A stretch of DNA of 64,000 bases from Calothrix sp. HK-06 (GTDB taxonomy: Bacteria; Cyanobacteriota; Cyanobacteriia; Cyanobacteriales; Nostocaceae): contig NZ_MRCD01000044.1 of assembly GCF_001904745.1 (NCBI RefSeq), forward strand, positions 1 through 64,000, given 5' to 3'. Position 1 is the stretch's first letter. Every line of letters starts with the position of its first letter. Below are positions 32,616 through 35,875 of this stretch, in pieces. The notes beneath the pieces were generated by a model. That model was not told the DNA's origin, searched no databases, and was given only the letters and a program-made list of their open reading frames with translations. The translations under genes and the position numbers were made by a program.

Positions 32616-33587
<972 letters not shown>

Positions 33588-33602
33588 TACTGTGTAAAAA
33601 CT

Positions 33603-33662
33603 CTTGTGGAATGGGCATCCTTGCCCGTTTCAGACCTGGGCGGGCGGGGACGCCCACCCCAT
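33603..33662. repeat. CTTGTGG-family inverted repeat between por and the caspase gene
   Basis: CTTGTGGAATGGGCATCC and the inverse GGACGCCCACCCCATAA around a G/C-rich core (CCTGGGCGGGCGG). It may act as a transcription or processing boundary between the two genes. Confidence 0.8.
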
Positions 33663-33721
33663 AATAAAATTTTGAATATTTTTATTTAAAACCCATATTC
33701 CGCACTTCAATATGTAGTACA

Positions 33722-35875
33722 ATGTCTCCTGTAGCTATTCGTACCAGTAACTCAATTAATGCTTTAGAAACAGGCACCGCCAAAATATGGCAGTTGTTAA
33801 TAGGTGTAAATCAATATCAAGATAAAAACATACCTTGTTTAAATTATTCGGCTCAAGATTGTCAGGGTTTAGCGGATGCTTTACAACAAGCTACACAAGC
33901 ATTTCCACTGAAGCAAGTTATAATTCATCATGATTTTGCTTCGGAACTTCCATACTTAGAAGCAGTTCGCAGCAGTTTACGGAAAATTACTACATCAGCA
34001 AAACCGCAAGATACGGTGATATTTTATTTCTCTGGACATGGAATTATTGATAGTACCGCGCGGGTAGTTTTATGTTTACAAGATACGCATAAGGATAATT
34101 TAGGCGCCACAGGTTTAACTTTACAAGAATTGTTAAAAACTCTCGAAACTTGTCCAGCACAGCAACAGGTGGTTTGGTTGGATGCTTGTCATAGTGGGGG
34201 AATGACTTTATTTGGCGCCAAAGGAGATAATGAAAACGAAGAAAATCCTACGAACCAGTTAGTAAACTTGTTGCGACAACGTGCGGCTAAAAGTAAAGGA
34301 TTTTATGCTTTACTATCTTGCGACCAAGACCAGTTATCTTGGGAGTTTCCAGAGTTGGAACATGGATTATTTACGTATTATCTTATGCAAGGGTTGCTTG
34401 GTGATGCGGCAGATGCACAAGGTGTAATAGATGCAGATGGTTTATATAAGTATGTTTATCAGCAAACGCTCTCATATATAGATAAGACAAATCAACAATT
34501 AAGATTAATTAACCAGCAGAACCGAAGTATTGGAATAACTGAAGCTTATCAAGAGTACTCTCTGCAAACTCCTAAACGAATAGTTGAAGGGGTAGGACAA
34601 TTAATTTTGGGTTTGAAAAGTAGTAAAGGTAAACAGCACCCTTTGCGAAAAGCTTTAGTTATTGAAGGACTTCCAGCTAGTGATGCTTGTCAAGAAATTA
34701 TTGAAATACTGCGTGCTGATGGTGATTTTGACGTAGACTATTTATTTCAACCTGCAACATCGGCTGATTTGCGTTCTAGTATAACTAAACTATTAGAATT
34801 GGAACATGGCGCCGTTTTGTTGTATTTGCGTGCGAGTATTGAAAAAACACCCGACGACGTAGGTGAAACTTTAATCGAATTATCTCCAACTTTAAAGATC
34901 ACTCGTTCGTGGCTGAAAAAACAGTTACAAAAAATACCAAATGTACAGCAAATTATTATTTTAGATTGCCCAATTGTAGAGACGCCATTAATCCCTACCC
35001 TTCGGGAAAACCTCCGCTTTACGGGAAAACCTCCGCTTTACGCGTCTTTACGGGAATGGGTAGAAGATTTACATCTACATCACGATCGAGGACAATGTGT
35101 AATTGCCGCATCACCCAAAGAACATTTAGAACAACTCACAAATATTCTACTTAGTACTTTAAAACAAAGGCGCCAAGCATTAGCATTAACGGCAGCAAGT
35201 TGGATTACTCAATTACAAATCGAGTTAGCTTCATTAAATATTAAACCATACTTTTGGTTATGCGGGACAAAAGGCATTATTGAAATTCTAATAAATCAAA
35301 CATTGTTCACAGACAAAATAGATATAGAAGACATATCTTTAAATTTTGGTGCCAATTACCAAAAACTACACGATTTGCTCAAATCTGGAAAATGGCAAGA
35401 AGCAAATAATGAAACAACACGTATTTTACTTGATCTTGCTCATCAAAACATCTATCTCAAGCCAGAAGATATTAATAATTTAGCTAGTGAAGACATTTAT
35501 ACTATAGATGGTCTTTGGGTAAAGTATAGCGGTGGACGTTTTGGTTTTAGTGTTCAGAAGCAAATTTGGGAAACTTTAAAGTCAACCAAACCTAACGATT
35601 ACGTTTTAGCAATGGTCATTGGTAAAGATAATGTCAAATTTGGTGAAACAGGTATCGATTTTGCGAATCGTGTAGGTTGGAGACTTAAAGATAACTGGTT
35701 AGATTATGATTATTTGAATTTTAGTTTAGATGCTGCCACTGGACATTTACCGTTTTTTAGCTTTATTGAAAACCCTTGGAGAATAAAGCTTTTGGGAATA
35801 TGGGAGATGAACAGCATGATTTTAACAGCTCGCTGGTGGCAACAATGTGTGTATTTTTTAAGTCGCGCGCGATAA
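33722..35875 (+). CDS. caspase-like (peptidase C14) protein fused to a GUN4 domain
   Basis: A 717-residue protein. Residues about 20-260 form a caspase-like p20 domain with the dyad His106 (FYFSGHGI) and Cys156 (LDACHSGG), so it may be an active orthocaspase. A middle region (about 300-535) has alpha/beta character with no family recognised. Residues about 541-690 form a GUN4-like domain: YQKLHDLLKSGKWQEANNET, DIYTIDGLWVKYSGGRFGFS and the W(K/R)-type core. Stand-alone GUN4 binds porphyrins and stimulates Mg-chelatase. Two features are notable: the gene lies next to por, and a TAGAGACG-family repeat (34977-35050, residues about 419-443) is translated in frame. No signal peptide. Confidence 0.9.
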   Translation: MSPVAIRTSNSINALETGTAKIWQLLIGVNQYQDKNIPCLNYSAQDCQGLADALQQATQAFPLKQVIIHHDFASELPYLEAVRSSLRKITTSAKPQDTVIFYFSGHGIIDSTARVVLCLQDTHKDNLGATGLTLQELLKTLETCPAQQQVVWLDACHSGGMTLFGAKGDNENEENPTNQLVNLLRQRAAKSKGFYALLSCDQDQLSWEFPELEHGLFTYYLMQGLLGDAADAQGVIDADGLYKYVYQQTLSYIDKTNQQLRLINQQNRSIGITEAYQEYSLQTPKRIVEGVGQLILGLKSSKGKQHPLRKALVIEGLPASDACQEIIEILRADGDFDVDYLFQPATSADLRSSITKLLELEHGAVLLYLRASIEKTPDDVGETLIELSPTLKITRSWLKKQLQKIPNVQQIIILDCPIVETPLIPTLRENLRFTGKPPLYASLREWVEDLHLHHDRGQCVIAASPKEHLEQLTNILLSTLKQRRQALALTAASWITQLQIELASLNIKPYFWLCGTKGIIEILINQTLFTDKIDIEDISLNFGANYQKLHDLLKSGKWQEANNETTRILLDLAHQNIYLKPEDINNLASEDIYTIDGLWVKYSGGRFGFSVQKQIWETLKSTKPNDYVLAMVIGKDNVKFGETGIDFANRVGWRLKDNWLDYDYLNFSLDAATGHLPFFSFIENPWRIKLLGIWEMNSMILTARWWQQCVYFLSRAR
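34977..35050. repeat. TAGAGACG-family repeat inside the caspase-GUN4 coding region
   Basis: TAGAGACGCCATTAATCCCT opens and ACGCGTCTTTACGGG closes an element enclosing two tandem 21-base copies that begin CGGGAAAACCTCCGCTTTA. It resembles the long copies at 25042 and 39918. It keeps the reading frame open and is translated in the central region between the caspase and GUN4 domains. Confidence 0.75.

Follow-up and report, generated by a model that had tools for sequence, protein, structure and literature searches.

A Calothrix caspase-GUN4 protein with a predicted pseudocaspase domain and a recurrent N-terminal module

Analysis of a 64,000-nucleotide stretch of Calothrix sp. HK-06 DNA (the window) reveals a gene at positions 33722..35875 (+ strand), a single 717-residue frame with an ATG start, in which a complete caspase dyad and a GUN4 domain are supported as parts of one conserved protein under purifying selection. 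Between the two lies a region that profile comparison and structure prediction indicate to be a second caspase fold, a pseudocaspase that was absent from an earlier sequence-only reading of this DNA. The active and dead caspase domains together make up a unit of about 523 residues that recurs with quite different C-termini, and we consider it probable that the protein is a cis-regulated orthocaspase, in which this unit is joined to an exchangeable C-terminal input, here GUN4.

Domain composition

There are two segments that Pfam recognizes. The first is Peptidase_C14 at residues 25–227 (33794..34402, + strand), with 63.3 bits against a cut-off of 21.4. It contains the catalytic histidine, His106, within YFSGHG (codon 34037..34039, + strand) and the catalytic cysteine, Cys156, within LDACHSG (codon 34187..34189, + strand). 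Alignment A1 shows no change at either residue in any of its 69 rows, and all 38 full-length orthologues keep the SGHG and LDACHSG motifs; with its p20 domain and His-Cys dyad the protein is an orthocaspase, a bacterial member of C14. The second is GUN4 at residues 543–689 (35348..35788, + strand), which scores 122 bits (E 2.6e-35) with PF05419, well above the cut-off of 29.2 that defines membership of this domain family, and which hhalign aligns to true Gun4 with a probability of 99.68. The intact dyad at these residues and the C-terminal GUN4-like domain in the same frame had both been recognized in the sequence-only reading, and both stand. In Pfam, C14 matches one stretch of the 717 residues, and it is followed by the degenerate caspase fold described below. 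A match to lincosamide nucleotidyltransferase at residues 502–612 (NCBIfam, 20.2 bits against a cut-off of 340) is taken as chance. The full-length structure model has a mean pLDDT of 68.7 and is poor in the GUN4 part (10-residue means of 25–52), and for this reason no arrangement of the three domains is read from it; the GUN4 part of the model was set aside because its alignment is too shallow.

The fusion is not itself new. Caspase-GUN4 proteins have been in print since 2010 (PMC2853523; also PMC3501461 of 2012 and PMC8283722 of 2021), GUN4 being counted in 27 true and two pseudo orthocaspases, 29 among 473 orthocaspases (PMC8283722), and tetrapyrrole allostery over GUN4-fused caspases, kinases and other proteins was proposed in 2020 (PMC7159879). 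The published examples (PMC2853523, PMC3501461, PMC8283722) likewise carry Peptidase_C14 and GUN4 in one chain, but are described, in the parts of these papers that deal with them, without the second, dead caspase and without the 523-residue module, both of which are present here.

A predicted second caspase fold

Residues ~305–525 (34634..35296, + strand) have no match in Pfam, but several lines of evidence indicate that they form a caspase fold. First, a profile of this middle domain built from 69 sequences aligns in hhalign with that of the protein's own caspase domain at P 1.9e-5, a value reached by none of 100 column shuffles and none of 21 reversed-and-rotated profiles; the corresponding probability of 77.8 is below 90, which counts against a pseudocaspase. 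Second, the AlphaFold model of residues 296–525 has a mean pLDDT of 84.8 and adopts a caspase fold. Third, a Foldseek search with this model gives 53 PDB matches at E<=0.001, of which the best 50 of the 53 are all meta-, para- or caspases, led by metacaspase and MALT1 (best E 1.7e-7, TM to query 0.60). The positions aligned with the dyad, 372 and 417, hold His in none and Cys in none of the 69 rows, respectively, and near-misses consist of Cys at 416 (58 of 69), Cys at 418 (two of 69) and His at 370 (one of 69). Because the dyad is missing we infer that the domain is inactive, and on the predicted structure we interpret it as a pseudocaspase. In the window, positions 34979–35047 form an in-frame insertion of ~23 residues within a low-confidence loop of this domain that is absent from the four aligned genus relatives; it holds 2.1 copies of a 19-base repeat (35003–35042), read in two frames.

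A tandem unit of an active and a dead caspase has no description that we could find in the literature surveyed, which included passages of PMC6426788, PMC8283722, PMC8195603, PMC10907252 and PMC5587647. Pseudo-orthocaspases (PMC6426788; SyOC, PMC7889975) likewise have a caspase fold without a working dyad, but in the proteins that these sources describe the dead domain is the p20 itself, whereas in the window protein it comes after an active domain of the same chain.

A caspase-pseudocaspase module with exchangeable C-termini

About the same residues 1–523, comprising the caspase and the predicted pseudocaspase, recur in many longer proteins. Seven long tails from the 74 related loci were scanned, and an nSTAND1 domain opens every one of them, with WD40 repeats also present in five. 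Other proteins with the 523-residue module carry a helical tail in place of nSTAND1 or GUN4; this has no match in Pfam (two tails tested), and the tail of L012 matches all six of the others compared. Two copies of a 'GPIA' motif are found in the helical tail (L012, L181, L182 and L184–L187). All three types are present in the genome to which the window belongs: GUN4 (the window protein), helical tail (L012) and nSTAND1 (L014). Rows of A1 that lack GUN4 are 42–56% identical to P0001, and A1 omits six of the 74 related loci (L072, L077, L078, L086, L087 and L088).

A quick maximum-likelihood tree built from 104 module rows separates the 38 rows with GUN4 from all others by a single branch, nested inside the rest; its SH-aLRT is 94, just under the tool's mark of 95. 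The topology suggests a single gain of GUN4, in an ancestor of these Nostocales. The label 'STAND-WD' on 58 rows of the tree was given to seven by tail scan and to the rest by their long tail, and the eight 'helical' rows include L188, with a tail of 31 residues, and L183, with one of 144. The tree also omits L020, L025, L031, L036, L045 and L019 (the last on the same contig as L131), and includes L015–L018 as GUN4 rows.

Two groups of known proteins share this general design. The nSTAND1/WD40 orthocaspases, which correspond to the WD40 and AAA_16 types in the classification given by PMC8283722, have residues 1–523 in common with the window protein, but end in an NTPase (with WD40 in five of the seven scanned tails) where the latter ends in GUN4. 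The EACC1-associated caspases, as presented in PMC7159879, likewise combine an unvarying caspase at the N-terminus with C-terminal domains that vary; the window protein differs from them in lacking an upstream EACC1 partner, in scoring under the family cut-off, and in having a predicted pseudocaspase between the caspase and the variable part. A tandem of active and dead caspases whose input can be exchanged (nSTAND1, alone or with WD40; GUN4; or the helical tail) would offer a natural set for studying how bacterial caspases are restrained.

Conservation and selection

Full-length matches, defined as spanning query residues 1 to 713 or beyond, number at least 38 among 217 family genomes, including the window protein, with at least five inside the genus and at least 33 outside; at most five candidates per genome were scored, and split or diverged orthologues may escape this count. 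At 82–89% identity, the nearest relatives that the search yielded belong to Calothrix sp. PCC 7103, Dulcicalothrix desertica PCC 7102, Calothrix sp. PCC 7716 and Calothrix sp. NIES-4105. The best matches in the other two of the seven genus genomes, at E 3.6e-131 and 4.2e-134, are much weaker than the full-length matches (1e-207 or better). A wider search of the order at E<=1e-170 found matches in four of 291 genomes, of which two are full-length and both of these inside the family, and the strictness of the threshold and the richness of the sample in family genomes mean that this does not establish absence outside the family. The other two matches extend no further than residues 1–528 or 1–525 and lie in frames of 1787 and 1740 residues.

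Comparison with the four genus relatives yields dN/dS values of 0.08–0.24 for the caspase, 0.26–0.35 for the middle domain and 0.10–0.16 for the GUN4 domain, and all three are therefore constrained within the genus.

The GUN4 domain and its possible ligand

The GUN4 domains of the 38 fusion proteins were compared with those of 31 true Gun4 proteins (L001 plus the 30 PF05419 loci with the highest scores), using the residue numbering of Synechocystis Gun4 (1y6i). There are several differences. First, the LxNxLR motif, which contacts tetrapyrroles in true Gun4, follows GHLP and marks Gun4 orthologues, is present in all 31 true Gun4 proteins and in none of the 38 fusions. Second, 35 of the 38 fusions have Leu at the F196 position. 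Third, the fusions have an insertion of ~21 residues with invariant positions, plus ~8 extra residues after GHLP. Finally, MAFFT places Leu at the R214 position in 37 of 38, in a register that is not settled: the local hhalign alignment to true Gun4 stops just after GHLP, and R687, an arginine that is invariant in all 38 and comes after a Trp, is situated four residues beyond the R214 position, so that a reading in which R214 is lost to Leu is not firm. R687 ends the sequence IENPWR (residues 682–687; 35765..35782, + strand), a possible displaced counterpart of LxNxLR. On the other hand, all 38 fusions retain W189 and have Tyr at 192, as do the 31 true Gun4 proteins. The window domain thus belongs to the same family as Gun4 (Synechocystis sll0558; PDB 1y6i, 4xkb, 7e2t) and shares its W189 and Y192-type aromatics, but lacks LxNxLR, has two insertions and is fused to a protease. 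The sequence-only reading had made a porphyrin-gated caspase depend on the presence of porphyrin-binding residues, and for this part of its argument the outcome is divided, the two aromatics being kept throughout and the motif being gone throughout.

Published mutants indicate how such changes might be read. R214 probably corresponds to R211 of Arabidopsis, judging from the spacing to F191, and mutation of R211 is reported to cut Mg-porphyrin binding 7.5- to 12-fold (PMC8967248). The F191A, R211A and R211E forms of Arabidopsis GUN4 nonetheless still bind porphyrins, with an affinity 2- to 12-fold lower (PMC8967248), so losing such residues need not abolish binding. In Chlamydomonas GUN4 the Asn of the motif is required for binding of bilin and not of porphyrin, and GUN4 paralogues are proposed to have lost bilin binding along with LxNxLR (PMC10156173). 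In view of the loss of the motif, the retained aromatics, R687 and these mutants, the ligand of the domain may have changed, its porphyrin site may be weaker, or it may bind no tetrapyrrole; our first guess for the ligand is nevertheless a tetrapyrrole.

It is possible, though doubtful, that protoporphyrin, Mg-porphyrin or bilins bound to GUN4 switch the protease on or off and so couple pigment stress to proteolysis. Homology to GUN4 (at the E value given above), the conserved W189 and Y192 positions, the invariant R687 close to where the porphyrin-binding arginine would be and the residual binding of the Arabidopsis mutants all favor such gating, which the text of PMC7159879 proposes for GUN4 fusions generally; these are offset by the absence of LxNxLR, the Leu at F196, the reshaping of this region by the insertion and the extra residues after GHLP, the proposed lack of bilin binding in paralogues without the motif (PMC10156173), and the want of any genomic tie to por beyond one genus.

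GUN4 domains occur at 11 places in the window genome and at 1–20 per genome in 60 sampled family genomes. The window genome encodes its likely Mg-chelatase cofactor separately, in L001 (222 bits), and the Asn and Arg of LxNxLR are absent from all six of the other GUN4 domains aligned from this genome. The best GUN4 match has an E value of 2.8e-63 or better in 59 of the 60 family genomes, as expected for a true Gun4, the remaining one (G027) having a best match of 4.0e-38. The window genome also encodes an EAD1-CHAT-GUN4 protein (L002:1456-2940, - strand; contig C48 of G000), a second case of GUN4 fused to a protease with a caspase fold, here with a conflict-system adaptor domain.

A model for regulation in cis, and alternatives

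How might these parts work together? In the cis-regulated orthocaspase that we favor, the conserved N-terminal unit of 523 residues, in which a dead caspase follows an active one, would either carry out or hold back proteolysis, and the C-terminal domain would serve as an exchangeable input, a role filled in related proteins by an nSTAND1 NTPase (with WD40 in five of the seven scanned) or a helical tail and taken over by GUN4 in what appears to have been a single ancestor of these Nostocales. The pseudocaspase would most likely act on the active domain as an in-built partner or inhibitor; cFLIP is an example of a pseudo-enzyme that acts as a partner or inhibitor of caspases. Binding of a ligand or a protein by GUN4 would then relieve or impose this restraint, and the released caspase may act on itself or on a small number of substrates, with cleavage probably following Arg or Lys, as in other orthocaspases. 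The EAD1-CHAT-GUN4 protein supports this scheme, being another caspase-fold protease that carries GUN4 in the same genome. GUN4 could instead be a localization or protein-binding domain and not a sensor. If it does gate the protease, the protein would be a bacterial caspase under small-molecule control, and would raise directly the question of whether pigment chemistry triggers death in filamentous cyanobacteria.

A role as an anti-phage or abortive-infection effector resembling the EAD/EACC1 conflict systems, with GUN4 as a recruited effector-associated domain without photosynthetic meaning, seems rather unlikely. The caspase part does score 133.1 bits with NCBIfam caspase_w_EACC1 (NF047832) and 71.7 bits with the PADLOC 'caspase' model, sister proteins carry nSTAND1, and EAD1-CHAT-GUN4 is encoded in the same genome. 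However, the NF047832 score is below the cut-off of 140 and the upstream gene is por and not EACC1, and we therefore do not assign the protein to the EACC1 systems. Nor do we assign it to PD-T4-6, since the PADLOC match to that system (model positions 295–429 of 450) is confined to the GUN4 part. Among ten proteins encoded beside outside-genus orthologues, one of which has no match, there is no Pfam defense family.

A bolder form of the cis-regulated orthocaspase, and an unlikely one, is an executioner that responds to the state of photosynthesis: an apoptosome-like single chain of active caspase, dead caspase and STAND-WD40 sensor, in which an ancestor of these Nostocales would have swapped the NTPase sensor for a reshaped GUN4 pocket, so that a tetrapyrrole or one of its breakdown products frees the caspase directly. 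Still less probable is a function in everyday proteostasis or heterocyst development in which GUN4 merely places the caspase at membranes or pigment complexes. True Gun4 is membrane-associated, and the protein is found within one Nostocales family, both of which would suit such a function; but the family genomes with a listed full-length match number 38 of 217 (a minimum), which argues that the protein is not generally needed in the family.

Relationship to por

The upstream neighbor of the caspase-GUN4 gene is por (32619..33587, + strand), encoding the light-dependent protochlorophyllide reductase (TIGR01289 LPOR, 576.2 bits against a cut-off of 331.35) and the sole match at E<=1e-80 in the window genome. 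The sequence-only reading correctly placed the gene 134 bases downstream of por on the same strand (gap 33588–33721), regarded this coupling as the notable aspect, and proposed a comparison of neighborhoods in relatives. That comparison does not bear the coupling out. The gene lies downstream of por on the same strand in all five genus orthologues, but with gaps of 134 (window), 67 (PCC 7103), 1376, 2798 and 4522 bases, and ORFs of at least 80 residues intervene in the three wide-gap genomes (three of five), on the opposite strand in two of the five. Outside the genus, por is near none of the 32 testable orthologues (E<=1e-15, 2.8 to 7 kb upstream; a 33rd, on a 3.6-kb contig, was left out of the count), and one of these has a 30%-identical dehydrogenase there instead. 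The adjacency is thus conserved in the genus and not beyond it. The ten proteins beside outside-genus orthologues include, by Pfam, pseudouridine synthase, glycyl-tRNA synthetase beta, Mur ligase, two FAD/NAD oxidoreductases, a PAS histidine kinase, an MFS transporter, an alpha/beta hydrolase, a sugar transferase and the one without a match, with no recognizable chlorophyll gene among them. Moreover, HPP, pentapeptide, DUF4870 and GNAT neighbor genes are common to the same five genus genomes, so the proximity of por is explained by general synteny; a single ancestral juxtaposition would account for the neighborhood, and por is no part of the mechanism proposed here.

The two short gaps also contain strong hairpins. 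The window gap folded whole gives -44.3 kcal/mol (z -4.55 against shuffles), with the hairpin at 33604..33664 (+ strand), and the 67-base gap of PCC 7103 forms one with z -4.76 against shuffles, and a transcript shared by por and the caspase gene therefore looks unlikely. A light- or chlorophyll-stress operon of the two genes, suggested by their common strand and the 134-base gap, is very improbable and is rejected on the neighborhoods and the gap hairpins. The hairpin itself may be a terminator or an interspersed repeat, the former only a possibility since a consensus terminator scan leaves it unflagged on the + strand and gives counts equal to those of shuffles. The 15-mer GGGCATCCTTGCCCG is present at positions 33613, 37169 and 42095 of the window, with one copy within the por/caspase hairpin, and is probably an interspersed repeat.
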